From NCBI RefSeq assembly GCF_019222765.1, contig NZ_CP078145.1:1178001-1242000 (forward strand): a stretch of 64,000 bases of DNA, read 5' to 3'. The stretch comes from Nocardia iowensis. GTDB lineage: Bacteria; Actinomycetota; Actinomycetes; Mycobacteriales; Mycobacteriaceae. The number at the start of each line of letters is the position of its first letter. Position 1 is the first letter of the stretch. The notes beneath the pieces are model-generated. The model was given only the letters and a program-made list of their open reading frames with translations. It was not told where the DNA came from and searched no databases. The position numbers and the translations under genes were made by a program. Positions 18,267-49,326 of the stretch are shown here, piece by piece.

Positions 18267-19224
18267 TGCCGAGATACAGGCCGAGCCCGATCCGAAGGAA
18301 CCGATCGACGACGGCCGAGCCGACTCACTTCGTATTCATATGAGTAGTACGTCGAAAGCGAAACCGCTTGTCCTGCACTAGGTTGCGCGGCACAGTTGGC
18401 CGCGCGTAAGGTCGGTGCTCCAACCGAATAGTGAACCCCGGCGGTGCTGGTAACACCCCGGGGTTCGGACCCAAGACAGGACCTTGGATCGTGCACAAGT
18501 CTAGCCTTTTCAGGCTCGCGTCCACCAACGGACGCCACCCCGCTTTCCCTTCCAGCCGGCCGCCCGGTCTTCGAGCGTGACGCTCGTTCTACTGCGCTGA
18601 GCCCATCGGCTCGCGCGTTCACCGCGGCCCCGGCTAGTACCTATCGCGACCCGCCGTTCCGGCACGGGCGGATAGGTCAGTTCTCGGTGCGCCGCCCCCT
18701 TCCTTCACTCCGTGCGCCCGGGAGATCCCTACGGGTGGATCGCCTAGCCCGCGTTGCCGTCGCCCGTCAGAGGGGCCGCAGCAACCTATTCCGATCACGA
18801 GCGGTCACCCGGTAAAGGCGGACTCGGACGGGGCTGACGTGGCAGTCAGACCGGCCGCTCGGAACATCCCAGTCCCGACACGGCCGAGTAATGCCCGGCG
18901 TGTGTGGCCTAACCGAAGCGATCCGATACGACCGACCAGGCGTGCGCTCGGGCTACCCGTTGCCCTCGCGGTAACGGGGTAACCCTGCCCTCGCTCACCT
19001 CCACTCCCTCCCAGGTGAGAGGGGTTGTCTCCGAGACGATTTAGCACTTTGTTGCCGGTAGGCGGCTGGCTGAGTACTATCGCCTCCGCGGCCAGCGTTT
19101 GGCCCTTCGTTTAAGATCCTCCCGCCCGTGCGGGGGCGTGACCGCTGACCGGCTCAGTGAATCGCGCTGAAGAATCCGTTCCTGCGATCTGTTCCACCTT
19201 TACTGACGACAAGATCCGCCTAGC
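18267..19224. other. About 1 kb structured non-coding region
   Basis: No reading frame here looks like a real protein. It holds several stable stems: 18433-18466 (nine base pairs GAACCCCGG/CCGGGGTTC plus an inner GGTG/CACC stem), 18570-18584 (CGAGCG TGA CGCTCG), 18639-18677 (ACCTATC/GATAGGT enclosing a CCGCC/GGCGG stem) and 19121-19136 (CGCCC GTGC GGGGGCG). It may encode a large structured RNA or contain the attachment/origin region. It sits between the island operon and the left end of the phage gene set. Confidence 0.4.
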
Positions 19225-19319
19225 CGGGGCTGGACCTTGGTTCAACCAGATTTCGATCTGGTCGAGCTGAGGCTGCCCCCGTGCCCCCTCTCTCGATCAG
19301 CGAGAGGAGCAGGATCTGA
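19225..19319 (+). promoter_or_regulatory. Structured leader, copy A
   Basis: The 95 bases before the membrane-protein gene at 19320 can form an outer stem (GGGGC...GCCCC with CCT/AGG), an inner hairpin ACCAGAT-TTCG-ATCTGGT (19245-19262, a UUCG tetraloop) and a second hairpin CTCTCG-ATCAG-CGAGAG (19290-19306) that runs into the ribosome binding region. The same arrangement precedes the paralogous gene at 20000, with different bases in the stems but pairing kept. This suggests a cis-acting regulatory RNA. Confidence 0.55.
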
Positions 19320-19538
19320 ATGGACTGGGCCACAGTCGCTCTCGGTGTGGGCATACCGACCACGGTTGCCGCTCTCGTCCGAGGATGCATCTTCTTCTAC
19401 GCCCTCCGGGGGACGGACCCGAAGGACCGGCCTGCGATCATCCGGGCACTCGGACGGATGCACAAGGATGCGCGCCCTGAACTGCCTCCGATCCGCCGCC
19501 GGGATGTCGACAAACCTGAATTGCCAAGTGGCTCTTGA
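19320..19538 (+). CDS. Small membrane protein, copy A
   Basis: A 72-residue protein with one N-terminal transmembrane segment (about residues 5-30, VALGVGIPTTVAALVRGCIFFYAL) and a basic/acidic cytoplasmic tail starting LRGTDPKDRPAIIRALGRM. The tail motif is shared with copy B (LKDVPGAERPAVLQALAEV). Start ATG with AGGAT upstream. Function unknown; the size and topology would fit a small membrane regulator, toxin-like peptide or superinfection protein, none of which is shown. Confidence 0.6.
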   Translation: MDWATVALGVGIPTTVAALVRGCIFFYALRGTDPKDRPAIIRALGRMHKDARPELPPIRRRDVDKPELPSGS

Positions 19539-19541
19539 CCT

Positions 19542-19904
19542 AATCACGGTTTGCGAAGCGGCGGAGTGGCCTGCCCGCTCACCTCTACCCTTCCGGGCTG
19601 ATCGACGTCCGGCAGTGCCAGAAGGGCGATCCTGGACGCCGAAACGTGGGCATCGAAGGGCTTTGCGATCTTGATATCGGCTGAGTAATCTCAGCGCTGG
19701 ACGTGTCCCTCCTCGCCGGAATACAAACGGGGTAGGGGGGATTGCTCCCCACCGCTGCTACCGGCGCAGCTCGTGGCACCCGCAGTCTCCGCCCGGCGCC
19801 AATCGGGCGGCAGGATGTTCCGAGAGATAACCCCACGAACAAGCAGGAGATGGAACGGGCTCAAGGGCTACCAACCCATTCAAGATCCCGCCGCGCCGGT
19901 AGGT
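19542..19904. other. Spacer between copies A and B
   Basis: No gene recognised. Short blocks here echo the region upstream of copy A (for example GCTCACCTC, GGCTGAGTA and CAAGATCC in the same order), so the two modules look like an old tandem duplication of leader plus gene. GC-rich stems are present but no clear terminator. Confidence 0.4.
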
Positions 19905-19999
19905 CGGACCTTGGTTCACCAGACGAAGCATTTCGTACTGGTCGAGCTAAGGCCGTCCATTTGCCTCTCGACCAGAATTCCCAGAGAGGCAAAACATCA
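19905..19999 (+). promoter_or_regulatory. Structured leader, copy B
   Basis: This repeats the layout of copy A: GGACCTTGGTTCA, then hairpin ACCAG-ACGAA-GCAT-TTCGT-A-CTGGT (19918-19942), then TCGAGCT(A)AGG, then a nine-base-pair perfect hairpin TTGCCTCTC/GAGAGGCAA (19961-19992) that covers the only ribosome binding sequence before the GTG at 20000. Both hairpins differ in sequence from copy A but keep pairing. Confidence 0.55.
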
Positions 20000-20185
20000 G
20001 TGGACCAATACACACTCGCTATCACAGTCATTGCGGCTGTGAGCGGTGCAACCGCAGCCGTAGCAACTGCGGTTGCCAAGGTTGTCGTTACCAAGAACAA
20101 GATCAGGATCCTCCGTGAGGCACTGAAGGACGTTCCTGGTGCGGAACGGCCGGCGGTCCTGCAAGCGCTCGCCGAGGTATTTTGA
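20000..20185 (+). CDS. Small membrane protein, copy B
   Basis: A 61-residue protein starting at GTG. Residues about 6-32 are a transmembrane helix rich in alanine and valine; the C-terminal half is a short helix ending in ERPAVLQALAEVF, matching copy A. The gene is immediately followed by an SOS box. Confidence 0.6.
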   Translation: MDQYTLAITVIAAVSGATAAVATAVAKVVVTKNKIRILREALKDVPGAERPAVLQALAEVF

Positions 20186-20235: not shown

Positions 20236-20487
20236 ATGCCTCAACTCTCTCGTCGCGACTGGGCGAAAATGAACCTGGAAAACGTCCGTGACCAGCTGCT
20301 TGACGCGGCAGCGTTCGGGAAGTACTTGCCGCCGGAGCAGCTGGAGCACGCGGCGGGGAAGATCGGCGAAGGGCTTCGAGTCTTCATGGAGTTGACGCCC
20401 GACCCTAGTGGGTTCGAAGACGGCGAAGCCCCTGGCAGCGCGAAAGGCTGCCAGGGGCAATCGTCTATCCGAGGGTTCCACCATTAG
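20236..20487 (+). CDS. Small SOS-controlled gene
   Basis: An 83-residue soluble helical protein beginning MPQLSRRDWAKMNLENVRDQLLDAAAF in outline (helix-rich, acidic). Start chosen because a -10-like element and LexA box sit immediately upstream, predicting a leaderless message. Its last 20 codons contain a perfect terminator hairpin (20428-20458) and it overlaps the converging tail gene by 23 bases, so the real protein might be truncated if transcription ends there. No family recognised. DNA-damage induction is inferred from the box. Confidence 0.6.
   Translation: MPQLSRRDWAKMNLENVRDQLLDAAAFGKYLPPEQLEHAAGKIGEGLRVFMELTPDPSGFEDGEAPGSAKGCQGQSSIRGFHH
20428..20458. terminator. Bidirectional terminator at the end of the structural operon
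   Basis: GCCCCTGGCAGC and GCTGCCAGGGGC form a 12-base-pair perfect stem with loop GCGAAAG. It lies between the converging plus-strand SOS gene and the last minus-strand tail gene. Unusually, it lies within the coding sequence of the plus-strand gene. Confidence 0.75.
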
Positions 20488-21331
20488 GGACCTCGGGCTT
20501 GTAGTTGATGTTCTGTACGTCGCGTGACCAACGGGACACGATCATGGATGACAGCCGGGTACCGCCGCGGATCGAGCAGTACGCGGAGCTGAACGTGCCG
20601 TTGTTGACCGGCGAGTACGCGATGCCCAGTCGAACTGTCTTCCAGTGGCTTGGGGCGGCCGGGTCGTCTTCAGCTGGCATGTGGTCGAGTACGAAAGTGT
20701 GCGAAAACGCGCTGCTCTGAGGGAAGTTCACCCCGAGCAGTCCCGACTGCTCGAACGACATGTTCGCCATCGCGTGGAACCGGCGGGCCGTGTACAGCGT
20801 GCCGTTCGAGTTGATGACCTCGATGGTGTACTGCGGCAGAATCGGGTTGTAGGTCGTCACCACCGTGAAGTACGGCGGGGAAATGATCGGGATAATCGTT
20901 TGGTTCAATGTGTAGCCCGACATGGTCGCGTGGACATCCACGCGCCACAACCCGCCCGCCCTCAACACGATTCCGTTCGTAGCTGGATCGACCACGGCTC
21001 GTTTCGAGGGGCCGAGGGCGGTATCGAAAGGCGCCACAACCCATTTCGACGGCGGTACATCCCAGTTGTAGCCCATGAACGCTGAGCAGTGACCGGAAGC
21101 TTCCTTGATCAGGTCCGCACGGTTACGCAGTGAGTTCTGACCGTCGTAGTGGTCAGCCCATGTCACGGCCTGTTTCTGGCGGAACAGCCCCCATCCGTCG
21201 ACCGCTTGGCCGAGGCCGGCACGGGCCGGGTTGGCGATGGTGTCTTTGACGTTCCCGGGTGTGTGCTCGCGGGCGAACTTCTCGCCGATGACGTACGCGC
21301 CATCCGGGGCGGGGAGGTGCGGAGTCGTCAT
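20465..21331 (-). CDS. Terminal minor tail protein, paralogue A
   Basis: A 288-residue virion protein, the last of the structural operon. It shares with its neighbour the N-terminal PDGAYVIGxKFxRE motif, a central MGYNWDV/MGNSWNV segment followed by KWV, and the same seven C-terminal residues PNGGTLG. The middle is beta-rich, as in receptor-binding or fibre proteins. An ATGA overlap couples it to the upstream paralogue. Tail location is inferred from operon position downstream of the tape measure and tail-tip genes. Confidence 0.7.
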   Translation of the reverse strand: MTTPHLPAPDGAYVIGEKFAREHTPGNVKDTIANPARAGLGQAVDGWGLFRQKQAVTWADHYDGQNSLRNRADLIKEASGHCSAFMGYNWDVPPSKWVVAPFDTALGPSKRAVVDPATNGIVLRAGGLWRVDVHATMSGYTLNQTIIPIISPPYFTVVTTYNPILPQYTIEVINSNGTLYTARRFHAMANMSFEQSGLLGVNFPQSSAFSHTFVLDHMPAEDDPAAPSHWKTVRLGIAYSPVNNGTFSSAYCSIRGGTRLSSMIVSRWSRDVQNINYKPEVPNGGTLG

Positions 21332-22062
21332 CCCAGTGTTCCCCCGTTGGGCACGGTCGGTTTCACGACCGGGTTGTCGGTCCCCAGGTCCCAGCGGTTG
21401 ACGCTCAACGCCGAGCGGAGCGTCCCGCCGTAGACGGTGGCGGAGTTCTTCGGGTGATAGACCGAGACCGTCACGTAGTAGGCGTCGTCGGCGGGGATCA
21501 CGAACGTATGGCTGAAAGCCGCTGTCTCCGCACCGAGTTGGGTAATCACGATGTCGTACTCATGCGCGGTGAAGGTCTTGTTGTCGCCGACCTGCTTGAC
21601 TTCTACGAGCACCGCGGCGGGGGTAGCCCCGCCGCCCCAATCGGCAGGTGCGGGAGCGAAGGTTACGTGAGCATCGCTGCGCCACAGGCCCTTTGACTTG
21701 AAGCGGATTCCATTGAGGAACTTCTCAGCTCCCTTGCTCGGGCCGAGCTGTTCATCGAACGGGAGTGTCACCCACTTGCCCCCGAGGACATTCCAAGAGT
21801 TCCCCATGAACAGTGACTGATATCCGGAAACAGATTCGAGCAGATCCAGACGGTTACCCATGTCGGCCTGGCCGTCGCGAACCGTGTCGGCCAGTTCCGC
21901 GAGGTTGTCTTTGATGCCGCCGAATTCGCCTGCGGCGGCGTTGTATTTGATGCGTGCCGCACCGGTGATGGTCGGCAACACCGACTCGCGTGTGATGTCG
22001 CGGGAGAACTTCGACCCGATGACGTACGCCCCGTCAGGCGGGCTAGCGCCTGGAGCCGTCAT
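21328..22062 (-). CDS. Terminal minor tail protein, paralogue B
   Basis: A 244-residue virion protein with the same N- and C-terminal signatures as paralogue A (PDGAYVIGSKFSRD, PNGGTLG) but a different beta-rich middle. Conserved ends with variable centres are typical of fibre or tip proteins that assemble on one scaffold and vary in receptor contact. The pair probably arose by duplication. Confidence 0.7.
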   Translation of the reverse strand: MTAPGASPPDGAYVIGSKFSRDITRESVLPTITGAARIKYNAAAGEFGGIKDNLAELADTVRDGQADMGNRLDLLESVSGYQSLFMGNSWNVLGGKWVTLPFDEQLGPSKGAEKFLNGIRFKSKGLWRSDAHVTFAPAPADWGGGATPAAVLVEVKQVGDNKTFTAHEYDIVITQLGAETAAFSHTFVIPADDAYYVTVSVYHPKNSATVYGGTLRSALSVNRWDLGTDNPVVKPTVPNGGTLG

Positions 22063-22073
22063 GTGACGTTTCC

Positions 22074-22442
22074 TTACCTAGGTAGAGAGGTTGGGCGACG
22101 TGGCGGGCGTCGGCCCGGGACGTTTTCCCTGATCCATTCGTGTAGTTCCTCGATGTGGTCGAGCGCGATCTTCAGCAGTGACTTCGTGTTCAGGTTCTCG
22201 GATTCGAGGACCGCTACTCGTGAGGTCAGCGCTTCCACCTGTGAACGCAGCGGAGCGACCAGAACGACCGCCGTGTCTGCGATGATCCGGGCCGCCTCCG
22301 CGTCCACCATTCCGCCCTCCGCCTCGGTCTTCCCTGCGGCGGCTTTCGCCTGCCTGCGGTTGAACCAGGCGGTCACACCGGCCCCGGCAGTGCCGGAGCC
22401 GATGACCGTTGCGACCGTTTCGAGGATTCCTCCCGAGGTCAC
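22074..22442 (-). CDS. Small membrane/coiled-coil protein, holin-associated
   Basis: A 122-residue protein starting at GTG 22442, overlapping the stop of the holin-like gene (GTGA). Residues about 5-25 (VATVIGSGTAGAGVTAWF) form a membrane segment; residues 35-100 are coiled coil (VEALTSRVAVLESENLNTKSLL). Many actinophages carry a second small membrane protein beside the holin with this topology. A role in lysis timing is inferred. Confidence 0.6.
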   Translation of the reverse strand: MTSGGILETVATVIGSGTAGAGVTAWFNRRQAKAAAGKTEAEGGMVDAEAARIIADTAVVLVAPLRSQVEALTSRVAVLESENLNTKSLLKIALDHIEELHEWIRENVPGRRPPRRPTSLPR

Positions 22443-22642
22443 GCCTTCTCTACGGGCGTCACAGCCGGCCGAATCCACAGACCCGCCAACAGCGGCGACA
22501 CCAGGGCATAACCCTGCGTCGCGAAGTCCACCCACGCGGTATCAACCGCCTTGCCAGCGACGACAGCCACGATCGCCGACACCGCGACCAACAGGCCGCG
22601 GATCAGCGCGGGCTCCGGGACGCGTGCAAAAGTCTCAGCCAT
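22439..22642 (-). CDS. Holin-like membrane protein
   Basis: A 67-residue protein with two predicted membrane segments (about 14-30, LIRGLLVAVSAIVAVVAG, and 40-57, FATQGYALVSPLLAGLWI). Size, topology and position in the late operon fit a holin that forms the pore for endolysin exit. No sequence motif proves it; the lysin genes are far away in this phage. Confidence 0.6.
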   Translation of the reverse strand: MAETFARVPEPALIRGLLVAVSAIVAVVAGKAVDTAWVDFATQGYALVSPLLAGLWIRPAVTPVEKA

Positions 22643-22649
22643 TCCAACC

Positions 22650-23051
22650 TCACTTCAATTCGATAGCGTGATCCCGGTCCGGAGTTGGGTCCGGGATCAT
22701 TCCAGCCGCCCGGTACTGGGCGATCATCGCCGCATTCTCAGCGGCAGTCAGTGACCCGATATCGGGGATAACCCGGGTATCGGGTGCGGGTGCGTCGATC
22801 GGCACCCAGGCCGTCGACGCATTCCACTGCGACTGCGGACCGGCCGCAGGCTTCTGGAACTTCTTCACCTGGAGTTCCGGATGATGCCGAAACCCGAGTT
22901 CGTACAGATGTTTCGACCATCCCCGCAGGATGTCCGGGTGGGTCACCATCGGCGCACCGCCGACGTTCGGAAGATGGATCAGAGCCCAGAGTGCATGTTC
23001 TTCCGGGCTATCCGCATCACAGTTGTCTTGGCTCGGAATGCCGATGCTCAC
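22650..23051 (-). CDS. Minor tail protein, DUF2744 type
   Basis: A 133-residue protein beginning MSIGIPSQDNCDADSPEEHALWAL, with HPDILRGWSKHLYELGF. These match the DUF2744 (phage gene 29-like) family found between minor tail genes of actinophages. It overlaps the stop of the preceding tail gene by four bases. Exact position in the virion is unknown. Confidence 0.75.
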   Translation of the reverse strand: MSIGIPSQDNCDADSPEEHALWALIHLPNVGGAPMVTHPDILRGWSKHLYELGFRHHPELQVKKFQKPAAGPQSQWNASTAWVPIDAPAPDTRVIPDIGSLTAAENAAMIAQYRAAGMIPDPTPDRDHAIELK

Positions 23052-24691
23052 ACAACCCCTAGCTGCTGTAGTGCTGACAGAATGTCTCGTAGCTGATCGA
23101 ACGCGGCCATCATCGGGTCTTCTGGCTCACGATGGCCGATATCTATTTGCCAGCCAGACGGCCCATCCGAGGTGTACTCATACGAAATCTTGGTGACACG
23201 TTCGACGTACACCAGGTTTTCCGGCATCCCCAGAACCGTCGTGCCGACTCGATCGCCGAGCCAAAAATCTCCTTGGCCTTGATCACCCAATCTGTATGGC
23301 ACCGAATCAGCGATCTTGACCGAATGGGCAGTTCTCCGGCGCGATGCCCAGAGGCCAGCACGGAGAGCCACCAAAGCCGCCAAGGTATAGGCGCGATCGC
23401 CGCTTCCCGATCCCCACCGCTCGTAATAGTGGGTCCAACCCAATTCTTGTGCCCGGGGTACGTCCTGCCACGATTGAAATGCGGCTACGACATCGGTGTA
23501 TAAAGGCCGGAGTATCATCTCCACGGCGGAGCCGATTTGTGATTGGGTGATCAACGACCCGAGGAACCCAGCGACCGCGATAATCGTTGCCCCCAGGGCC
23601 TCGTTCACGCCAGGGGCGGAATGTCCACCGATTACGACTTTCGTATCGGTAGCCTCGTAATAGATAAACTCAGATGACTCGATGCCCGTATACGGAGACT
23701 CTTCGAACACAACCCAAGGAGCCTCGGCCATGGTGCCGCGGAAAGCCGGATCGTAGTACTCATCGGGGAAGTTCGGGTTCGCGACGACATCGCGGTTTTC
23801 GGTGAGGCCATCGGATCCGATCGAGGTAACCATGCGGGCCAGGCCATTGATCAGATCGCCATCAAAGCTCGTACCGTTCGTCCAGGCGCTTTTGTCTTCG
23901 ATACCGAATACGAGGCATCCCGGCTTCAATTTTGCCCCCGGCCACGGAGGCGGATCGCCGGGCAGATATCGACGTGCTTCGACGTGGAGTTGACCGTCCT
24001 GAAGAATCTGCTTCGCGACATCGTGGAACGGTTTGAACCGGGAGAACACCAGTGCAAAGACGGATCGGTCGTTGAGAATCGAGAACGGCTTAACAACCAT
24101 TGACCATGTTGTCTGGTCAAGGTTGAACCATTTCGACGGGTCGAGCGGATCGTCGGGAAGTGACCACCACGATCCTTCTTTTCTCATGACGGCGAAAAGG
24201 AGGGTTATGCACAAACTCCACCGTGCAGGCCCGAACACTGCCCATATCTTCGGGAATTGTAGTTCCGGGGGGAGCCACGGATTCGAAAATATGATCAGGT
24301 GCTTGAGGTGTTCATAATCGTGGAGAAATGAAACTTCGAGGTATGTCCGGCCGTCTTTCTCTTTGACAACCTTGTAGTTGTCCATGGCGCCGGACCAACG
24401 TGCGCCCTGTTTGTCGAACGTCACGATCACGTTCTTCTTCTCGCGCCCGCGATGGTTGATGATCCATTTCGCGATGTAGTGCGACAGGGACAGCTTGAGG
24501 TAGGCGGTGCCGGTGTCGTTCTCGACAAAGGTGAACCCGTGGGCCAATTCGCCGACTACTTCACCGAACAGGCGCATGTCGCCGTCCCAGATCCGGATCA
24601 GTGCTTTGCGAAGCCGATCCTGGACCCACTGCGCCTTGCGGGCTTGGATCTGCCGGTGAACCTCGTTGAGGTCGACAATGGTTGACTTCAC
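23048..24691 (-). CDS. Minor tail protein (Gp37-like)
   Basis: A 547-residue tail protein. The GTG at 24691 overlaps the preceding stop (GTGA), which fixes the start; the longer upstream frame has arginine-rich shadow composition. Features include a short hydrophobic stretch (ATIIAVAGFLGSLI) in the middle and a WLGDRVGTTVLG segment near the end, as in the siphovirus Gp37-like family that follows the distal tail protein. It probably forms part of the tail tip. Confidence 0.8.
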   Translation of the reverse strand: MKSTIVDLNEVHRQIQARKAQWVQDRLRKALIRIWDGDMRLFGEVVGELAHGFTFVENDTGTAYLKLSLSHYIAKWIINHRGREKKNVIVTFDKQGARWSGAMDNYKVVKEKDGRTYLEVSFLHDYEHLKHLIIFSNPWLPPELQFPKIWAVFGPARWSLCITLLFAVMRKEGSWWSLPDDPLDPSKWFNLDQTTWSMVVKPFSILNDRSVFALVFSRFKPFHDVAKQILQDGQLHVEARRYLPGDPPPWPGAKLKPGCLVFGIEDKSAWTNGTSFDGDLINGLARMVTSIGSDGLTENRDVVANPNFPDEYYDPAFRGTMAEAPWVVFEESPYTGIESSEFIYYEATDTKVVIGGHSAPGVNEALGATIIAVAGFLGSLITQSQIGSAVEMILRPLYTDVVAAFQSWQDVPRAQELGWTHYYERWGSGSGDRAYTLAALVALRAGLWASRRRTAHSVKIADSVPYRLGDQGQGDFWLGDRVGTTVLGMPENLVYVERVTKISYEYTSDGPSGWQIDIGHREPEDPMMAAFDQLRDILSALQQLGVV

Positions 24692-25572
24692 CAGAGCCCC
24701 CACGGGCGGCTCCACGGCCTTTTGAGACGGAGCTGGATCTTCGCGCCGACCGGGGCTTGTGCGATGGTGACGGGCAGCTGGGCGTTGCGTGTGTAGGGCG
24801 GGATCGGATGGCGGAACCGCACACCAGCCATCCGTGCCCATACCTGGGAGCCCGACCAAGACACGATCTGCGGGGACCGGGGGTCTACATCGACCTCGAT
24901 GTCCTCGCCCTCTACGAGGCTCGGCATGACGATTCGCCGGGCGGCGAGATCGTCGTTGTGCCAGGAGAAGTCCGGCAGTACGACGCGCGACGGTGCCGAC
25001 ACCAGCCACATCGGCCAGACGGGTTGATCGGTCGGATTGAGCTCAGCGATGTCGAACCCGTGGGTCACCGCGGCCGGATTGATGTCTCCGTCCTTGATGA
25101 GGGGCGTGGTCGTCAGGTCGCGGTCGAGAACCCATTCATAAACGCTTTCTTCGCCGTACCAGAACGGGTCTCCGGCGATGACCGTCATCAACGTGAGGTT
25201 GACCGGGTTCAGCGTCGGGTCGGTCGACATGTCGACCAGCGGTGATTCCCCCAGTCGGATCGAGAGGTAGCGCCGGCCGGAATCGGTGGTCACCCACAGC
25301 TTGCAATCCCGCTCGAACGACCAGGCTTTACGCCACGCGCTGTCGCGATCCAGCCATGTCCGGCCGGGCTCTGGATCGTTCAGGATCTCGACACCGAACA
25401 CGATGTCTCGGCGCATGATCTTGTGTGCCAGGTACCGAGCACCCGGCAGGTTCGCCGGTTCCTCCCACACCGTTCGCACGGGCGGGTCGTATATTCCGTC
25501 TAGTGAAGTCCCGAGGTAGACGCCTTTATCCCCGGCGTCGGGGCCAGCGAGCGTGAACCATTCTCCGTTCAC
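24688..25572 (-). CDS. Distal tail / minor tail protein
   Basis: A 294-residue protein with a FTLAGPDAGDKGVYLGTSLDGIYDPPV opening typical of the actinophage tail protein that follows the tape measure (distal-tail-like). The first canonical start is GTG at 25572, but its purine-rich site is only two bases away, and the open frame upstream (encoding IETVVELEG) reads like the conserved N-terminus of this family. No ATG, GTG or TTG exists there, only an ATA at about 25606 overlapping the tape-measure stop. The true start is therefore uncertain. Confidence 0.8.
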   Translation of the reverse strand: MNGEWFTLAGPDAGDKGVYLGTSLDGIYDPPVRTVWEEPANLPGARYLAHKIMRRDIVFGVEILNDPEPGRTWLDRDSAWRKAWSFERDCKLWVTTDSGRRYLSIRLGESPLVDMSTDPTLNPVNLTLMTVIAGDPFWYGEESVYEWVLDRDLTTTPLIKDGDINPAAVTHGFDIAELNPTDQPVWPMWLVSAPSRVVLPDFSWHNDDLAARRIVMPSLVEGEDIEVDVDPRSPQIVSWSGSQVWARMAGVRFRHPIPPYTRNAQLPVTIAQAPVGAKIQLRLKRPWSRPWGLW

Positions 25573-25601
25573 GCCCTCCAGCTCGACAACTGTTTCGATT
25601 G

Positions 25602-28600
25602 CTATCTCCCGATATACTGCGCTTTCTCCCGGGTCTGCCGGTTGCGCTCATTCGCGTTGACCTCGTCAATCGAATTGACGTTGTAAACGATTTTTGGACC
25701 TTGCTCGAACAGCTGACCGATAAAGCCGCGGTTGCCGATTCCGAGGTCAGACAGAAACGTGTCTCGTGTCGACTCCAAGAAGTTCTTGGGAATGTCGTTG
25801 AACTTCGCCTTCTCAGCGGCTTCGTCCCATTTGTCGCCGATGTCATCGACACCGAACGCCTCGCCGATTTGGTCGGCCGCAGCGCGTAGCGTCTTCTGAA
25901 GGGTCTGTAGGCCGTCTTCAACGCCGTCGTTCAACGCGAGCGCGAGCTCCTTGCCCTTCGGCTTCATGCGCGCGGTAGCAGCGTCGACGGCCGCCAGAGT
26001 TTCTTGCGTCCGGTTTTCCACTGCCTGGACATCCAGACCGGAGTCGGTGATGCCGTTCTTCTTTTCCTTGGCTTTCAGCCGCAGCTGATCGACCTGGAGT
26101 TGAAGCGCCTTCGCCTCGTCTTTGAGTTCCTTGGCCCGCGCCTTGTTCGGCTCTTGGTCGGCTTGCTGGCGGAGTTCTTTGATTCGAATCCGCAGCCGGT
26201 CGGCCTGAAGTTCGAGTTCCTTGACTTCCCGCTTGGTCGCATCGTCCAGCTTCGGCGTGTTAGCCAAAGCATTCTTGGCGTTCTTCTCGGCCTGGGTCGC
26301 GGTCTCCGCGATTTGCTTGCTGGCGTTGTCGACAGCGCCGACGATGATGATCAGACCGAGTTGTCCGGTGTCACCGAAGACTTCTTTGGCTGCCTGCATC
26401 AGTTGTGTCGCAGAGTCCACGATCTTCTTTTGCTGATCGGTGAGACCTTGGGCGAACGCTTCACCGACCGATTGGCCGGAATACAGCACCCAGCCTTGAC
26501 CCGCGAACGGGCCTTCCTTGGCCGGGCTGAACGGGAACAGATCTCGTAGGGCGCCGAGGGCATTGCGCGCTGTCGACAGCATTTCGGGGACGACGGCCGA
26601 CATGCCGGTAATGAAGCCGCGGAGCAGCGCCTTGCCGGATTCGACCAGATAACTGCCTACGTCGCCGAGTGCATCCTTGGCCTTCTGTGGCAGGTCACGG
26701 AACCACGCCGTGAAGTTGTCGGCCGCATCCATCAGGAAGGTAAGCCACCGTTCCAGCGTGCGCGCCAGAAAATCGGTTATCGTGGTCCAGGCGGCTTCCC
26801 AGTCGCCGGTGAATATTGCCTTCCAGGTTCGGAAAGTGGTCGCCACGGCATCGAGGCCCGTGGAAACGATCGTCTTGATCGCGTCTAACACAGTCGAAAC
26901 GGTGGTCAGCAGAAACTGAATGGCCGGTACGACCACGGTAAGAATTACACTCGCAAATCCGCTGAGATACGGCAGCGCGCGAGTGAACCAATCGAGAAAC
27001 TGAATCACGAATGGCAGGATCGCCACCACTATATCGAGCAGTTTCGGTAATACCTGGCTGATCAATTGCTCAAATAATGGCGTCAGCTCGGGAAGCAGGC
27101 GAACCATTTCTTTAACCCAAACCTCGGCGAACTTCACCAATTCGGGCAGCAGGGGAGTGAGGTTCGTCAGAAATTCAGCGAACACGCCGACCAATTGCAC
27201 GAACAGCGGCAAAATTATCGGAATCGCCTGGGCTATACCATTCGCCAAAACCACGGCCAGGTCGCCGATCGACTTCACAATGTCGGGCAATATCGGAGCC
27301 AATTTGTCAATCGCCTGAGCGACAGCATTTCCCAGTGATCCGGCTATCTGACCAAGGGAAGCCGAGAGCCGGGGGAGAATTGGATCCAGGGCGGCAAAGC
27401 CACCGAGCAAGGCTGAATTCAGTGAGGCTGCTACAGGGGTCAGAAATTGGCCTAATAGTTCGAAAGCCTTAGCGAGCCCACTGCCGATCAAGTCCATCAA
27501 TTTGGTTAATGATGGAGTCATTTTCTGAAGAATTGGCCCCAAATTATCCATCAATGCCGTCAGCACTTTCAGGATATTCGCGGAAAACGACGAGAAAAGT
27601 GGCTCTGTTTTCAAGAAGAATTCGCCGAATGATGCGAAAAACTCGCCGAGTGGCTTGCCGAGACTGGCCATCGCATTTACACCGGCCTCGAACAGCTTGT
27701 TGAACATCACGCCGAGGCCATCAAAAGTCGCAGACAATCCGGTGAACATGCGGTCGAACGGATTGTTTCCGCCCTCGCCTTGGGTCAGCCGTTCTGTCAT
27801 CTGCTGAAAGTCGGCCGTGAATTTATTGAGCGAGCCAGACAGTTTCCCGAAGTTCTGGGAACCCGACTCGGCCATGTTCATAAAGCCCTGAGTGAAGTTG
27901 GAAACGGCAGGGCGCAAGTCGGTGAAGAACTTGCTGGTTTGACTCAAGATGGTGTTCACCTGAGTTATGCCGCGCGTCGAAGTGACCACATCGACAAAGC
28001 CCTGAGCCATCTCGGTCAGACCGCCGACAACGCCTTTCAGGCCCTCGGTCAACGGACCGAACAGCGGCTTGAGCTGGCGCATGATCGGCGTCAGCTTCTC
28101 TTTCCACTCCTGCGACAGCGCCGCTTTCAGGGCATCGACTTCGGGAGCCAATTCCCTTGCGGCGGCCTTGATGCCGTCTTTGCCGAGCATGATGGCCGCA
28201 GCAGCCGCACCGAACATTCCGGCGAAGGCCGGAAGCGAACCCATCAGGCCCACAACCAAACCCAGCGCAGGAGAAGCCAGCGCCGCGACCAAGGCCAGGA
28301 TCCGGCCGAGGGTGAACATTCCGCGACGAATCTTGGTGATCGTCGTGTTGAACGAGTTGTTGATCGAGTTGTCGACCTCGCGGCCGAACCTGTTCATCTG
28401 CTGGCGGTTTCGTTCGATCCCGCGCCCGGCGCGTTCGGTCTCGCGTTCCCACTCGCGCCCGTACCGGCGTACCTGCTCGATCTGGGCTTCGATGTCTCGA
28501 CGCAGACGCGCTCGCGCGTCGGGGTCCATGTCCGCGCCGAACTGCATACGCGTGGCGCCCTCGGCCTCTGAGACCATCCGTTGTAGCTCGCGACGAAACC

Positions 28601-28967
28601 TCTCCGCGTCCACGTGTGCCGGGATCCGGGCTTCGGCCTGGCGCGCGAGACGACGAAGCTCGCGTTGCATCCGCTCGACCGCGAGGTTGTCTAGGTCGAT
28701 GTCGACCGGGAGACGCGTAGGGCGGGTAGCCCTCGGAACTCGGCTCGCCCCGTCGCCGCTGGAGCCTCCGGCACCGGTCTGTGCCCTGCGCGCTGCGTTG
28801 CGGATCTCGCGTTCGAAGTCGCTGGTATCGGCGACGACCTTGACCCGAACCCGAAGGGTGCGTTCCATGCGCTCGAGGTACTTATCGAGGCTCTTGCGGA
28901 AGTTCTCGGTGTTCGGAACCACCCGGACCGAGATCTTGTCGACTACCTTGCCGCCCGGCCCGGCCAT
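25602..28967 (-). CDS. Tape measure protein
   Basis: At 1121 residues this is the longest gene in the window, as expected of a tape measure, whose length sets tail length. It begins with a charged coiled-coil N-terminus rich in arginine, has a long central hydrophobic helical region (residues about 230-300 and 560-760) with repeated LxxLLPxL-like units, and ends in coiled coil. It follows the frameshifted chaperone gene with a GGAGGA site. Base composition in the middle is less GC-rich than its neighbours. Confidence 0.92.
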   Translation of the reverse strand: MAGPGGKVVDKISVRVVPNTENFRKSLDKYLERMERTLRVRVKVVADTSDFEREIRNAARRAQTGAGGSSGDGASRVPRATRPTRLPVDIDLDNLAVERMQRELRRLARQAEARIPAHVDAERFRRELQRMVSEAEGATRMQFGADMDPDARARLRRDIEAQIEQVRRYGREWERETERAGRGIERNRQQMNRFGREVDNSINNSFNTTITKIRRGMFTLGRILALVAALASPALGLVVGLMGSLPAFAGMFGAAAAAIMLGKDGIKAAARELAPEVDALKAALSQEWKEKLTPIMRQLKPLFGPLTEGLKGVVGGLTEMAQGFVDVVTSTRGITQVNTILSQTSKFFTDLRPAVSNFTQGFMNMAESGSQNFGKLSGSLNKFTADFQQMTERLTQGEGGNNPFDRMFTGLSATFDGLGVMFNKLFEAGVNAMASLGKPLGEFFASFGEFFLKTEPLFSSFSANILKVLTALMDNLGPILQKMTPSLTKLMDLIGSGLAKAFELLGQFLTPVAASLNSALLGGFAALDPILPRLSASLGQIAGSLGNAVAQAIDKLAPILPDIVKSIGDLAVVLANGIAQAIPIILPLFVQLVGVFAEFLTNLTPLLPELVKFAEVWVKEMVRLLPELTPLFEQLISQVLPKLLDIVVAILPFVIQFLDWFTRALPYLSGFASVILTVVVPAIQFLLTTVSTVLDAIKTIVSTGLDAVATTFRTWKAIFTGDWEAAWTTITDFLARTLERWLTFLMDAADNFTAWFRDLPQKAKDALGDVGSYLVESGKALLRGFITGMSAVVPEMLSTARNALGALRDLFPFSPAKEGPFAGQGWVLYSGQSVGEAFAQGLTDQQKKIVDSATQLMQAAKEVFGDTGQLGLIIIVGAVDNASKQIAETATQAEKNAKNALANTPKLDDATKREVKELELQADRLRIRIKELRQQADQEPNKARAKELKDEAKALQLQVDQLRLKAKEKKNGITDSGLDVQAVENRTQETLAAVDAATARMKPKGKELALALNDGVEDGLQTLQKTLRAAADQIGEAFGVDDIGDKWDEAAEKAKFNDIPKNFLESTRDTFLSDLGIGNRGFIGQLFEQGPKIVYNVNSIDEVNANERNRQTREKAQYIGR

Positions 28968-28975
28968 GCGTCCTC

Positions 28976-29715
28976 CTACCCGGAGCGGACGGCCTTGGCT
29001 CGGCTCATCAACTCGGAAAACTGGTTTGATTTCTTGGGACGCTGCTTCTCGGAGTCAGGCGTCGGAATTGGCTCAGGCGGTGCGGGACGGCGCTTCGCGT
29101 GAGCGGCGATATACGCCCAAGTGAGTTCACGGATCGCGTTGACCTGAGCGACCGCCAGATAGCGGTCCTCGTTCCATCCCCGGTATTGCGGACCGCCGCG
29201 CCACGCCGCGACGAAGGCGGCCTCTGGCGGTAGATGCATCAGCAGCGCCAGGGCGCGCCGCGGACTGAGCCCGGACCCGGGACGAAGAACGTCGATGAGG
29301 TCCAGACGGTAGAAGTGCTGGAAATCTGCGAGAAGTTCCTCGCCGTGCCTGTCGATCAGGCCGGCGAGTTCGAGGCTTCCCCCGGCTGGGTGGCCTCCAT
29401 CCAGCGCTGGAACACGCGCTGCAACAGCAGCTCGTCATCACCGATCTCGCGGAGCAGCTTCACACCGCCGGTCTCGGCGGCGAGCTTGATCACCTCGCGC
29501 ATCGAAGTCAGGACAGGCTCAAGGTCGGCATCGTCGTCCTCGGCTTCGACCTTCATCGACTTGAGATGGACCTGAACCTTGTCCCGGTCCTTCTTGTCCA
29601 GGCGCAGCAAGTTCCGCAGAACAACGGTGGAGCCGTCAGCCAAAGGGATTGCGACGGGGGCGAATTCGTTCTCGATCTCCTCGCGGAGCGATGCGAGGGT
29701 GAAGATGTTAGCCAT
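28976..29715 (-). CDS. Tail assembly chaperone, long form by -1 frameshift
   Basis: The upstream chaperone frame (from 29715) shifts by -1 at GGGGGAA (minus strand, 29383-29377) and continues to 28976, giving a product of about 246 residues. The frame after the shift has no start codon but encodes LELAGLIDRHGEELLADF, then LSPRRALALL and FVAAWRGGPQYRGWN, which is the recognisable T-type extension. This is the gpG/gpGT arrangement conserved in siphoviruses. The long form is thought to bind tape measure and tail tube during assembly. Confidence 0.85.
29356..29715 (-). CDS. Tail assembly chaperone, short form
   Basis: A 119-residue acidic protein ending at 29356 when no frameshift occurs. It contains VVLRNLLRLDKKDRDKVQ and REIGDDELLLQRVFQRWMEATQ, typical of gpG-like chaperones. 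It precedes the tape measure gene and follows the tail tube gene, the canonical position. Confidence 0.85.
   Translation of the reverse strand: MANIFTLASLREEIENEFAPVAIPLADGSTVVLRNLLRLDKKDRDKVQVHLKSMKVEAEDDDADLEPVLTSMREVIKLAAETGGVKLLREIGDDELLLQRVFQRWMEATQPGEASNSPA
29377..29383 (-). promoter_or_regulatory. -1 slippery heptamer GGGGGAA
   Basis: Read on the minus strand as G GGG GAA in the zero frame; after a -1 slip both tRNAs re-pair on GGG and GGA. It lies seven codons before the short-form stop, and the -1 frame beyond is coding. Confidence 0.75.
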
Positions 29716-29806
29716 GGCGGGCCTTTCGGGGAATCAGCAAGAATGAGGCGGGCAAAGAAGAAACGAAGGGTGCGGCGGCCCGCCAAGGAGGCCGCACCCC
29801 CGAGCG

Positions 29807-30697
29807 TCAGGGTTCGACGGGGAACAAGTCCTCGTTGATCCACGAGTAGAGATCCTGGGAGCCGAGCTGCAAGAAGGTCGCGCGGATAGGCAGCGTGGCG
29901 AAGTCCTCGCCGGAGAGCTTGATAGCTTCATCGCGGCGGACATTCGATCGTGGCACGTAGTGCCCGAGCCGCACGTCACCGTCGACAATGATTGTGAGAA
30001 TGGCCTTTTCGTTGACCGGTGCGGATCCGCCTTTAACGCCGAACACGCCCGCCGTGGTCGAGTTGTTCTTGCCGTAGTACAGCTTCAGGCTCGAACTGTC
30101 GAACTGCTGAATTTGCACCGTCATGTGGTCGGAGATCGCTTCCTTCTCGACCTCACGCAGCGCCTTGCGCTGCCAGGTGCCCTTTGTTTCGGTGTCGCCG
30201 CCCTCATAGGCCAACTCGGGCAGGTTCTCCAAGCTGGTGTGGCCCACGATCGACCAGCCGTTAGGCGCAGTCGAGGTCACCGAACTGACGGCCGGAGTGG
30301 TGCCACCTGACAGGCCGGTCGAGACGATGGTCAGCGGGACCGTCTTGCCCTGGAGCTTGCCAGCGAAGGCCAGCACGACCGGCGTACTGAGCAGCGGTCC
30401 ACCGGAGACGTAAGTGACGTTGCCCGCGCCGATAGATGGCAGCGAAGCAACCAACTCAGCGATCTTCGGGCCGGAAGCGTCGAAGGGCACATCAACAGGA
30501 GTCTCGGCAGCCGCGGACTTGATCGTCCACTTACCGGCGGTCGGAGTGCCGGTCATGGTCAGCGTGATGTGCTGCGCGCCGAACAGCAACGGATCCAGCG
30601 TCTTGAGCGCCGCCGGAGTCGGGGGCAGAGTGCCCGGGTTCGCGACATAGATGTAGCCCGCACCGGGTGTGATGACGGCAGCGTCGTTCAACGCCAT
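29807..30697 (-). CDS. Major tail tube protein
   Basis: A 296-residue beta-rich protein located directly before the tail chaperones, the canonical position for the tube protein. The C-terminal part (EKAILTIIVDGDVRLGHYVPRSNVRRDEAIKLSGEDFATLPI) resembles tail tube proteins of actinophages. An inserted Ig-like region is suggested by residues about 45-145 (TMTGTPTAGKWTI...). Confidence 0.82.
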   Translation of the reverse strand: MALNDAAVITPGAGYIYVANPGTLPPTPAALKTLDPLLFGAQHITLTMTGTPTAGKWTIKSAAAETPVDVPFDASGPKIAELVASLPSIGAGNVTYVSGGPLLSTPVVLAFAGKLQGKTVPLTIVSTGLSGGTTPAVSSVTSTAPNGWSIVGHTSLENLPELAYEGGDTETKGTWQRKALREVEKEAISDHMTVQIQQFDSSSLKLYYGKNNSTTAGVFGVKGGSAPVNEKAILTIIVDGDVRLGHYVPRSNVRRDEAIKLSGEDFATLPIRATFLQLGSQDLYSWINEDLFPVEP

Positions 30698-30709
30698 AGA
30701 GATAAGCTC

Positions 30710-31129
30710 CTAAGATTTGCGCGGCGGCCGAAGGCCGAGCCGGATAAGTCCCTGAACGCGCCAGCTGTCCATGTACAGGGACGAAAATTGCGTGGCGCCC
30801 ATGGTTTCGAACACGGAGTTCAGATATCCGTGCTCAGTGACGGTTTGACTCTTCGCCGCGTCGTACAGTGCCGAAAGAGCGTCCTGGTACAGGTCTTCGG
30901 TTTCGATGAGACCGTCCACTGTGTACGCGGTCATCTCGACCACCGGTAGCGATAGATCCTCGGGCCTATCCAGGTTCCGGAATCCGCCCAGGCTCCTGAT
31001 GTTGATCATCGGAAACGTTCGGTAATCCAGATCCTCAACCCAGGTACCGATTTTGACGGTCGTGGGCAACGCGGCCCGCAGGATCGGGAGCACTACAGCT
31101 TGGACACGCGGCATTCGCCGTGCTGTCAT
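30710..31129 (-). CDS. Tail terminator protein
   Basis: A 139-residue protein between the head-tail connectors and the tail tube gene. Its MPRVQAVVLPILRAAL start, the FPMINIRSLGGFRNLDRPEDL segment and short length fit tail terminators that cap the tube. It overlaps the upstream gene by ATGA. Confidence 0.7.
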   Translation of the reverse strand: MTARRMPRVQAVVLPILRAALPTTVKIGTWVEDLDYRTFPMINIRSLGGFRNLDRPEDLSLPVVEMTAYTVDGLIETEDLYQDALSALYDAAKSQTVTEHGYLNSVFETMGATQFSSLYMDSWRVQGLIRLGLRPPRKS

Positions 31130-31452
31130 CGCGCCTTATGTGGAAGTCGTCGTTCCAGCCCAGCCGCGTCGGTGAGGACGTAGAGGCCCGGAACGTGCTT
31201 GCCTTCTTTGGTGACATGGCCGTATTCGATTGCCGCAGCGGCCTTCACGCCGCGCGAGTCATCGAGGTTGACGAACGCGTCGACCTCCCCGTGAGTGACT
31301 GTCACCGTGGAGTGCCCGTCGTGGCGATGCTCGGCGAGTTTCGCCCTAGCTATGTCGGCCACGGTGTGCGCTTGGTCGGAGACGGCCTTGATCACGCCGG
31401 GCAGGTGCGAGATGAGTCGGTTCATCTGCCGCTGAGACATCTCGATGCCCAT
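31126..31452 (-). CDS. Head-tail connector / neck protein (DUF5403-like)
   Basis: A 108-residue protein starting at ATG 31452 with an AGGAGG site; longer in-frame versions lack a binding site. Contains MNRLISHLPGVIKAVSDQA and IEYGHVTKEGKHVPGLYVL. Operon position between connector and terminator suggests a neck or completion protein. Confidence 0.7.
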   Translation of the reverse strand: MGIEMSQRQMNRLISHLPGVIKAVSDQAHTVADIARAKLAEHRHDGHSTVTVTHGEVDAFVNLDDSRGVKAAAAIEYGHVTKEGKHVPGLYVLTDAAGLERRLPHKAR

Positions 31453-31811
31453 CAGAACCTCCTGATCATGTAGGCAAGGTGAGCCGTTCGCCGAGATCCG
31501 TTGAAGGGCACCGCGTCTCCGAATAGAGCCCACCGAACGCCGTTCCATTCGATCTGCGTTTGAGCGCCGAGCGGGCGGTTGTTGTTGAATCCCCGGGGGA
31601 ACCTCAGCTTGAACAACTGTTCGGACTCATAGCCCTCGTTGTCTTGCTCGGTTCTGCGTGCACTGGTGCCGGATTGCGCGGCGCTGCGAATCATCGCCAG
31701 CGCCGGGAATCCGGCCTTCGCCGGGCGTGTTCGGGTGTTGCCGTCTGCGTCGGTCACGACCTCTTCGGGGTAGACGATCACGGACTCATTTGCCTTGTTG
31801 AGCAGGCTCAT
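31452..31811 (-). CDS. Head-tail connector protein (stopper-like)
   Basis: A 119-residue protein whose ATG overlaps the stop of the previous connector (ATGA at 31808-31811). It starts MSLLNKANESVIVYPEE and has a beta-rich core (QIEWNGVRWALFGDAVPFNGS), consistent with a head-closure/stopper protein. Confidence 0.7.
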   Translation of the reverse strand: MSLLNKANESVIVYPEEVVTDADGNTRTRPAKAGFPALAMIRSAAQSGTSARRTEQDNEGYESEQLFKLRFPRGFNNNRPLGAQTQIEWNGVRWALFGDAVPFNGSRRTAHLAYMIRRF

Positions 31812-32218
31812 ACGTCCCGCCAGAACTGCGGCTCGGGCCTTGCGCCCAGCGGTGGCCACGGCAGCCGAGGGTGGATCAGGAAGACCCGTTCGGTCACACC
31901 GAGCAGCGACCATTCGTAGTCCATGATCTCCAGTCGGCCGGTCGCTTCTTTCCAGTTGAGTTGGTAGGAGTACGAGCCGTCGACTTCGCCGGTCATCGCC
32001 TCTGGGTTGCGGACAACCCGCATGACTGCGTTCGCTTCGACCATCACGACAATGCCAGGGTCGATCTGGCCGGCGGTGATCAGTTCGTCCAGGTTCTTGA
32101 TCCTGGACCTGATCAGTAGCTCGGCGTCGTTAAGGAGTGTCGCCGCCTGCGTCGACTCGTCCGGCGTCAGGGGCCTTCCGAGGCGACTTGCTACGTCCGC
32201 CGGTACGGCTCGTGCCAC
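31808..32218 (-). CDS. Head-tail adaptor protein
   Basis: A 136-residue helical protein of the gp15/gp19-type adaptor family: LTPDESTQAATLLNDAELLIRSRI followed by VEANAVMRVVRNPEAMTGEVDGSYSYQL. GTG start with AGGAGGTGA site. It normally attaches directly under the portal. Confidence 0.78.
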   Translation of the reverse strand: MARAVPADVASRLGRPLTPDESTQAATLLNDAELLIRSRIKNLDELITAGQIDPGIVVMVEANAVMRVVRNPEAMTGEVDGSYSYQLNWKEATGRLEIMDYEWSLLGVTERVFLIHPRLPWPPLGARPEPQFWRDV

Positions 32219-32309
32219 TGGTCACCTCCTGGAAACCCGAAAACTTCAACTGTTCGCCGTACTCGTCATCGACTTCGACGTACGAACCGAGTGGATGCTT
32301 CAAAAGCAT
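32130..32309 (-). CDS. Small head protein overlapping the adaptor gene
   Basis: A 59-residue protein beginning MLLKHPLGSYVEVDDEYG, preceded by GGGAGGA. The first 30 residues resemble a small conserved protein found after the major capsid gene in many actinophages; the tail is basic. It overlaps the downstream adaptor gene by 89 bases in another frame, and the adaptor's ribosome binding site is inside it. Confidence 0.65.
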   Translation of the reverse strand: MLLKHPLGSYVEVDDEYGEQLKFSGFQEVTSGTSRTGGRSKSPRKAPDAGRVDAGGDTP

Positions 32310-32365
32310 GTGAATGTCCTCCCAGCCGGAGCACTGAAATGTGCTCCCGGACTGTCGAATTCGAA

Positions 32366-33364
32366 TTAGGTGGCGGTGACGTTGTCGAACTTGACGAACG
32401 CCTGCTTGTCGCCGAGCACCCACCCGAAGGTCACCTCGACCAGCAACGCGGCCTGGTTGGTCTGCCACAGGTTCACGGTGTTCGTGCCGTCCGAGATGGA
32501 GGCGGTGTCGGTGAACTTGTAGCGGATCGAATCGGCGAAACCGATTCGCAGCTGGGAGAAGTCGCCGCCGATCACACGGAGGCCGGTATCAGTCGCCGCA
32601 CCCAGCTGACCGGAGACCGCGCGGCCGTAGTACGCCGGGAAGCCCAACACGTCGGAGACCTGCGCGGACAAGTCGATAGCGCCCGGGTTGAGCGTCTTAC
32701 CCGACATGTCTCGCGCCGCGGCCTCTTTGACCAACGTCGAGCGGAATCGTGGGTCAACGGCCCAGCCGTTGAACTCGAAGTCTGGGTTGTTCGCGACCAG
32801 GTCATAGCCCGCGAGGAGGTCTTCGTACACCGTGCCCGGCGACACCAGGAACTTGACCACGTTTGTGGTGTTCGCGATGACGTTGGTGGTGTCGATGCCC
32901 TGGAGCGCTGTACCGGTAAGAGGCTGCTTGCCGTGGAACACCGCCAGGTCGATGCCGCGGCCGATCGCAAACGCGAGATCAGTGCGGATCTGATCGTAGA
33001 AGCCCTGCGGATTCGTCTTCGCGAACTCCTCGCTGAACGTCACGATCGTGGCAATCTTGATCGGCTGGAAGCTCTTGCTCGACCAGGCGGTACCCGAGAT
33101 CGGCTTAACGCCACCCTCTCGCTGAGCGTTGCTGGTACCGGTGCCGACTTGACCGACCTCCGGTCGCTTGGTGGTGACCGGGATAACGGTCTCACCGAAA
33201 GTCACCGGAATAGGCGAACCCAGCCGCAGAGCGAGCGAGGATTCCTGAGCCTTCTGAAAAATCGGACCGGTGATCGTCTTCGGCAACAGGTTATCTGGGA
33301 CATAAGCCAGACGGCCCTGGTGATTGGTAGCAGTATTCGGAGCAAGTTCGTTGATCTGTGCCAT
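32366..33364 (-). CDS. Major capsid protein (HK97 fold)
   Basis: A 332-residue coat protein. It has the opening helix region, then GSPIPVTFGETVIPV, IATIVTFSEEFAKTNPQGFYDQI, GRAVSGQLG and the C-terminal GGDFSQLRIGFADSIRYKFTDTA, typical of HK97-type capsids of actinophages. It follows the scaffold gene by 15 bases. Confidence 0.92.
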   Translation of the reverse strand: MAQINELAPNTATNHQGRLAYVPDNLLPKTITGPIFQKAQESSLALRLGSPIPVTFGETVIPVTTKRPEVGQVGTGTSNAQREGGVKPISGTAWSSKSFQPIKIATIVTFSEEFAKTNPQGFYDQIRTDLAFAIGRGIDLAVFHGKQPLTGTALQGIDTTNVIANTTNVVKFLVSPGTVYEDLLAGYDLVANNPDFEFNGWAVDPRFRSTLVKEAAARDMSGKTLNPGAIDLSAQVSDVLGFPAYYGRAVSGQLGAATDTGLRVIGGDFSQLRIGFADSIRYKFTDTASISDGTNTVNLWQTNQAALLVEVTFGWVLGDKQAFVKFDNVTAT

Positions 33365-33379
33365 GGAGGCGGAAAATCC

Positions 33380-33883: not shown

Positions 33884-33938
33884 AATGCCTCCTGGGCACA
33901 CAAGACGCACTCGCCTGGAGTGCGGTAGTCAGAAAGAA

Positions 33939-37959: not shown

Positions 37960-37976
37960 CCGCCTCCTTTCTTGAA

Positions 37977-41649: not shown

Positions 41650-41725
41650 GCCTCACCTTGTATGCCGCGTGGCTATCGCGGGGTCGGGTACTGGGCTTCC
41701 TTGCGGCACGGCCGTTTTCCCATTG

Positions 41726-49280: not shown

Positions 49281-49326
49281 GTCTGTTGTGACAGCGGACA
49301 AGTCGGGGGCCGAGAAGGACCAACAA

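Follow-up and report, generated by a model that had tools for sequence, protein, structure and literature searches.

A knotted RNA in a Nocardia iowensis prophage related to the RNA-based replication origins of cluster-A mycobacteriophages

A gene-free kilobase beside the tail genes of a Nocardia iowensis prophage contains a structured RNA that is homologous to those of the known RNA-based prophage replication origins and belongs to their family. Our preferred reading, to which we assign a probability of roughly 0.66, is that this knotted ~500-nt RNA of the + strand, a homologue of the cluster-A origin, makes host enzymes start to replicate the phage DNA once this is excised or circular, and that the leader-bearing genes next to it are a separate module. 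RNA-only origins are described for a single mycobacteriophage group, in which RNA-seq and deletion revealed the RNA; the main text of PMC7157519 gives no fold for it. The fold proposed here, a double pseudoknot with invariant loops and support from covariation, is a target for probing how replication starts. That the RNA also occurs in Rhodococcus genomes, and in phages of Nocardia and Gordonia that integrate, raises the question of whether small phages that lack an initiator protein start replication from RNA.

A structured RNA beside the tail genes of a prophage

The 64,000-nucleotide stretch analysed here (the window) covers positions 1178001-1242000 of the 8.95-Mb genome and includes most of a siphovirus prophage. 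In addition to the genes below, the prophage carries genes for an endolysin, an exonuclease, a DnaB-like helicase, a primase, a DNA polymerase, a polynucleotide kinase and an RNA ligase.

20465-39239 (-): genes of the prophage for head, tail and packaging, with tape measure, portal and terminase among them, from protein scans
41725-41798 (-): tRNA-Asn within the prophage, between the endolysin and the early genes
49288-49836 (+): phage repressor (phrog_357)
63141-64000 (+): prophage tyrosine integrase (PF00589), running on beyond the window to 64439 (right flank L135:3141-4439)

Because its DNA polymerase resembles that of mycobacteriophage Changeling (59% identity over the compared part), a cluster-A phage, the prophage is cluster-A-like in part. 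The attachment sites attL and attR could not be placed because the two flanks (12.6-17.0 kb and 62.8-67.5 kb) have no exact same-strand repeat of at least 14 nt in common. A search of the whole N. iowensis genome for PF00239 gave two matches, both outside the prophage.

No conserved gene was found between positions 18267 and 19230, and the core of this interval is a conserved RNA, as seen in the alignment with its relatives and in the model built from them (R2). The initial annotation had described almost 1 kb of gene-free, structured DNA at this place, and that description holds. It is not the extreme edge of the prophage, however, since a sister prophage has counterparts of two genes at 15.7-18.3 kb. 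The features of the RNA are as follows.

18490-19012 (+): origin-type structured RNA, inferred extent ~18.49-19.01 kb (5' end near GCACAAGTC, 3' end past the C-rich tract)
18715-18737 (+): hairpin P1 (CGCCCG at 18715-18720 with CGGGTG at 18732-18737)
18756-18914 (+): conserved RNA core (model R2, 159.1 bits)
18762-18776 (+): hairpin P2, GCCC(GTCAGAG)GGGC, a portable module seen in other phage non-coding regions
18790-18828 (+): pseudoknot PK1 (TCCGA at 18790-18794 with TCGGA at 18824-18828), outside the model
18798-18861 (+): helix Pa (18798-18806 with 18853-18861), enclosing P3 and P4
18808-18832 (+): helix P3 (18808-18811 with 18829-18832), with the conserved loop GTAAAGGCGGACTCGGA
18820-18875 (+): pseudoknot PK2 (GGAC at 18820-18823 with GTCC at 18872-18875)
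18834-18849 (+): hairpin P4 (18834-18838 with 18845-18849)
18878-18903 (+): helix P6 around the conserved loop GAGTAATNCCC
18956-18978 (+): hairpin P8 (CCCGTT with AACGGG), pairs read by eye and uncounted
18983-19012 (+): C-rich, G-poor tract 3' of P8

The ends were placed from the R2 core together with the ~500-nt unit that is common to other Nocardia with unrelated flanks; among the sequences compared, the far 5' part is resembled only by the sister prophage of N. ninae. P1 is visible by eye in 14 of 18 aligned rows and absent from three Gordonia phages and L015. After P8, an excess of C over G of at least 10 per 30-nt stretch is present in all 33 members examined, and in 28 of them it reaches or passes the 5% level set by random pieces from the same locus. 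Possible roles of this tract are Rho loading, which would end the RNA, and lasting pairing with the template. Rfam, which includes the large phage RNAs GOLLD and ROOL, gave no match to the RNA region at the gathering threshold or at E<=5, and none at the gathering threshold for eight related loci.

Covariation supports a double-pseudoknot fold

The aligned relatives have invariant blocks and, between these, segments that differ in sequence and still pair. The proposed fold is a three-way junction in which the central loop forms pairs with either flank, giving a double pseudoknot, and is supported by covariation. From 37 non-redundant groups (L087 was rejected by eye), 14 sequences were taken for an alignment made from sequence only. 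In the named structure (P2, Pa, P3, P4 and P6; 29 pairs), 86.0% of cells are paired, against 71.0% in shuffles, and 68 cells are double-changed, against 27.9. The covariation score of 0.412 was reached by 0 of 500 shuffles (0.168 +/- 0.017). Of the initial annotation's reading, structured RNA with compensatory change is supported. Two weaker measures were the number of pairs with double changes (18 against 14.2 in shuffles; 5/500) and of further pair types (38 against 32.5; 13/500). Since related sequences can beat shuffles without any structure, controls with slid partners also matter, and shifting the partners by 1-3 columns brought the covariation score to 0.127 or less.

Double changes occur in 7 of 9 pairs of Pa (78.9% of cells paired), 2 of 4 pairs of P3 (100% paired), all five pairs of P4 (83.8% paired) and, across its two helix parts, 4 of 7 pairs of P6. 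P2 is invariant in the 14-sequence set, and its last pair changes from C-G to G-C in Alma and Gladiator. G-U pairs are retained in the helices. A mis-registered model, shifted by one column (R1), scored below R2 in 34 of 38 members, including the window RNA (135.4 against 159.1 bits), and above it in four (L016, L110, L127, L129).

The pseudoknots are not themselves part of the model and were assessed on 30 of the 45 R2 matches, leaving aside eight whose cluster-A-type P3 loop is misaligned by the model (six cluster-A phages, L110 and L127) and seven weak partial matches. PK1 is paired in 97.2% of cells with 11 double-changed cells, and PK2 in 94.1% with two, so that the support for PK2 consists of few double changes. 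Jointly, 95.8% of cells are paired and 13 are double-changed, against 3.8 in shuffles (0/500), with no excess of further pair types (6 against 6.2). Cluster-A members retain PK2 in other letters, as read by eye and uncounted.

Homology to the cluster-A replication origins

Although none of the 14 sequences on which R2 was trained belongs to cluster A, the model finds the origins of LadyBird, Alma, RedRock and Gladiator with E values of 3.6e-16 to 6.5e-15 in 13.7 kb. It thus matched all four origins examined, of five published (the fifth is Et2Brutus, the most divergent). The scores of these origins are lower, at 51-56 bits, and the alignment of their P3 loop to the model is poor. After conversion of positions, the matches in Alma (26589-26765), RedRock (27400-27595) and Gladiator (24590-24771) all fall within the ~600-bp origins of Table 4 in PMC7157519, and all three are divergent from parA, like the transcribed RNA. 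LadyBird was taken from the IMG/VR contig L125, in which ParA lies downstream and is divergent. The homology, the fold and the strand of the RNA are established in this analysis.

According to the main text of PMC7157519, parABS phages without RepA make a non-coding RNA, in the reverse direction, from some ~600 bp of DNA to the left of parA, and this DNA allows a plasmid to replicate without the need for any ORF. When the origin was deleted, lytic growth remained normal; Alma lysogens were unstable, with one or more patches from 7 of 10 original colonies still releasing phage, and the survivors obtained with LadyBird lacked stable lysogeny (PMC7157519, main text). That text mentions neither 'secondary structure' nor 'Nocardia', and among the papers listed in our searches of the open-licence literature there was no later one on the fold of this RNA or its presence in Nocardia.

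The window RNA lies on the + strand and the tail genes on the - strand end towards it, the same topology as in cluster-A loci. It further resembles the non-RepA cluster-A origin in being a homologous RNA on the same strand, with no ORF needed, and in lying between the tail genes and the lysogeny-maintenance cassette. In contrast to the published arrangement, with parABS beside the origin, the window phage is integrated, has a tyrosine integrase and yielded no ParA. A Changeling ParA query found none in the window or its right flank (phmmer E<=1e-3, tblastn E<=0.01); the same tblastn run recovered 7 of 7 cluster-A loci, although a very divergent ParA could escape it. Among the scanned proteins of the window and right flank, which are part of the ORFs, there was no RepA-like initiator.

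Distribution of the RNA in phages and genomes

A first BLAST gave nine phage records, comprising Gordonia phages of 16-18 kb and Changeling, together with matches in 14 of 99 genomes including its own; those of G063 and G084 were short and some others were to the leader. With the gap beside parA of Changeling as query, 165 phage records matched, 158 of them from Mycobacterium phages and 122 covering at least 80% of the query, and ParA was named under the match in 56 of the 60 matches listed.

R2 found the RNA in 22 of 150 Nocardia genomes at E<=0.001, 21 with at least 53 bits and one (G148) with only 23.5 bits. Across the family, 15 of 301 genomes matched at E<=1e-6, from 8 of 31 genera. An order-wide search, with a strict pre-filter, returned N. 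iowensis itself as the only match among 397 genomes, a negative that is weak because only 7 candidates were scored per genome. Among the hosts named by the DNA pattern are Nocardia, Rhodococcus and a single Nocardiaceae MAG. Scans with TAAAGGCGGACTCGG and CGTCGCCCGT gave 44 and 53 stretches, respectively; many of these scored 12-30 bits or nothing with R1 and are not members. Likewise, L052 from Streptomyces is a partial match only (21.9 bits with R2) and was not counted.

In small phages that encode both a repressor and a tyrosine integrase (L003-L005, L055, L066), the RNA lies near an HNH/terminase end. Two Nocardia loci (L148 and L150) carry large integrases of 554 and 536 aa about 1.1 kb from the RNA, which were found with PHROGs and missed by our home-made integrase profile, which was too narrow; judged by size, they are probably of the serine type. 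In six other Nocardia stretches (L141-L146) the RNA (~290-530 nt) is the sole DNA shared at E<=1e-10 over 200 nt, which suggests a self-contained unit rather than the leader of one gene; other pairs in that comparison have long flanks in common, as is usual for related phages or close relatives. Several of the Nocardia copies have ordinary chromosomal genes as neighbours and no recognised phage gene in the vicinity; these may be remnants or have another role.

In one subgroup, of Nocardia type (L009, L013, L028, L037, L038, L040, L041, L043, L044, L049, L050, L064), an additional hairpin is inserted between P4 and Pa, and in most of its members a conserved 5' part follows an extended -10 that resembles TGGTACGGT. 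Positions 3507-3668 of the Gordonia phage Daredevil (90 kb) match the cluster-A origin RNA. Three annotated genes overlap the RNA, namely McGonagall gp25 (L003:15293-15445), Coeur gp23 (L005:15153-15305) and the N-terminal part of GMA5 Orf26 (L004:16193-16310), and are probable mis-annotations over it.

The P2 module in other phage RNAs

The P2 hairpin module, CGTCGCCCGTNAGANGGGC, is also found by itself, with no other part of the RNA, in further non-coding regions (L107, L112, L116, L117, L122, L124, L188). At the right end of Mundrea, which 192 records resemble, it lies directly after a promoter-like sequence (L188:1084-1101, - strand); Mundrea-type mycobacteriophages are presumably A4. This end differs from the window RNA in having no P3, pseudoknots or P6 (24.3 bits with R2). 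The available text of PMC5712189 describes in cluster-A phages (L5, D29, StarStuff) a very abundant ~500-nt non-coding RNA made from Pleft at the right end, and gives it no role. That RNA and the window RNA are alike in being phage RNAs of ~500 nt, and P2 recurs at Mundrea-type right ends. Allowing up to three mismatches, the module was not found in the right ends of D29 and RedRock, which goes against the idea that P2 is common to all cluster-A right-end RNAs.

Proposed function and alternatives

Under the preferred reading, transcription from upstream of 18.5 kb would produce the RNA, the double pseudoknot would give it a fixed fold, and its 3' part (P8 and the C-rich tract) would stay on, or be processed at, the template and thereby prime DNA synthesis. 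In the integrated prophage, the RNA would act after excision or be kept silent. That it primes or opens replication with host enzymes is suggested by analogy with what the authors of PMC7157519 propose for cluster A, who, in the main text, liken it to the protein-free, RNA-initiated replication of ColE1-type RNA II replicons. We infer transcription in Nocardia, priming, and any use in excision or lytic growth. Some considerations temper this reading. Being integrated, with an integrase, the window prophage needs no plasmid origin for its maintenance. Moreover, Alma without its origin is still lytic and most of its colonies still release phage, so that a lytic role is established in no phage and the maintenance defect in Alma is partial.

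A broader version, which we put forward tentatively and hold to be less probable than not, is that the RNA is a general replication initiator of Mycobacteriales phages, including integrating phages after excision and phages of 14-21 kb with almost no replication genes. Some abundant early right-end RNAs of other phages might then be replication RNAs too, because the P2 module is shared with them.

It is also conceivable, though unlikely, that the RNA, while homologous to that of the cluster-A origins, does another job in integrating phages, for example as a trans-acting regulatory or host-takeover RNA, with origin activity as a side use in cluster A. The RNA accompanies integrases (in the window, McGonagall, GMA5, Coeur, L148 and L150) and occurs in Nocardia loci without recognised phage genes, and cluster A makes another abundant ~500-nt non-coding RNA (PMC5712189, available text), with P2 recurring at Mundrea-type right ends. 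On the other hand, the functional data found for this RNA family, those in the main text of PMC7157519, are replication data only, and the small relatives are poor in replication genes: the annotations of McGonagall and GMA5 include a DNA polymerase III subunit, and that of Coeur has none.

That the conserved element is a feature of the DNA, such as an attachment site or a cruciform, would suit its place on the att/integrase side of the tail genes; it is highly improbable given the fixed strand, the G-U pairs kept in the helices, the pseudoknots and the expression of the RNA by cluster-A relatives (PMC7157519, main text).

Leaders and small membrane proteins

Downstream of the RNA, two adjacent units each combine a leader with a gene for a small membrane protein, as the initial annotation had described.

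19226-19308 (+): leader 1 (hairpin 1 at 19226-19279, hairpin 2 at about 19286-19308; pattern start 19234)
19320-19538 (+): small membrane protein 1, 72 aa, with homologues
19902-19993 (+): leader 2 (hairpin 1 at 19902-19958, hairpin 2 at 19960-19993; pattern start 19908)
20000-20185 (+): small membrane protein 2, 61 aa, GTG start

Both leaders fold into a long hairpin and a second hairpin near the start codon, and their stems differ between the copies and still pair, again as described. The window's two leaders gave folding z scores of -2.6 and -7.0, and a set of 11 leaders gave -3.7 to -5.9 (60 shuffles each). Both proteins have a hydrophobic N-terminal part, as seen by eye, and the related C-terminal motif noted earlier is of the type AL+G..P..RPAIIRAL. 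The 72-aa protein has no Pfam match, and the homologues of both proteins bear no functional name.

The leader pattern occurs exactly twice in the 8.95-Mb genome (control pattern, 0) and 10 times, in seven genomes, among 150 Nocardia genomes (reversed control, 0). All 10 leaders are followed, 48-57 nt past the pattern, by an ORF of 57-72 aa whose N-terminal part is hydrophobic and which carries the C-terminal motif; in one N. carnea copy the motif is only loosely kept. Further copies ahead of the same kind of protein, which the initial annotation had proposed as a test, are thus found, though as a module of their own. An eleventh leader, on a Nocardia plasmid, precedes a different short ORF, as judged by reading. 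Leader-pattern matches in viral contigs (L137-L140) were rejected, having no matching inner stem or small membrane protein.

It is very improbable that the structured RNA and the small membrane proteins form one system, a toxin/antidote or superinfection module, as had been suggested. RNA and leader units are adjacent in the window and in N. ninae and lie within about 2 kb of each other in N. carnea, and three of the seven leader genomes contain the RNA. However, the RNA model has no match in the other four, and the leader pattern is missing from 18 of the 21 genomes in which the RNA match is strong, which argues for separate modules and against an RNA acting with or on a membrane peptide; the orientation in N. 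carnea also differs. A tblastn search with both small proteins gave no match at E<=1e-4 in the Gordonia and mycobacterial phage loci searched, a weak test for such short proteins. Nothing that we found points to a role as toxin/antidote or in superinfection, and the 1-kb RNA is better explained as an RNA of the origin family. The leader and small-membrane-protein units are an independent Nocardia module.

On the simplest reading, the leader probably controls translation of the small membrane protein. Whether it does so as a switch is more doubtful: with hairpin 2 placed at the ribosome binding site, its CTCGAYC might instead pair with GGTCGAG of hairpin 1 and so turn translation on or off. All 11 leaders contain CTCGAYC, which is complementary to GGTCGAG (through one G-U pair in some copies), although the search pattern did not require it, and hairpin 2 varies in sequence while its pairing is kept. 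Against a switch, both 7-mers may be just a protein-binding site, and leader 1 may have a second AGGA resembling a ribosome binding site outside hairpin 2. A kissing loop was dropped as a candidate, as the fold pairs TCGAG inside hairpin 1. Leader modules that lie apart from the RNA are found near a gene for a large protein with a nephrocystin-like NTPase domain and one for a WD40 protein (L153:10532-13606; L136:602-3919), neighbours that, going by their sequence, could hint at defence islands.
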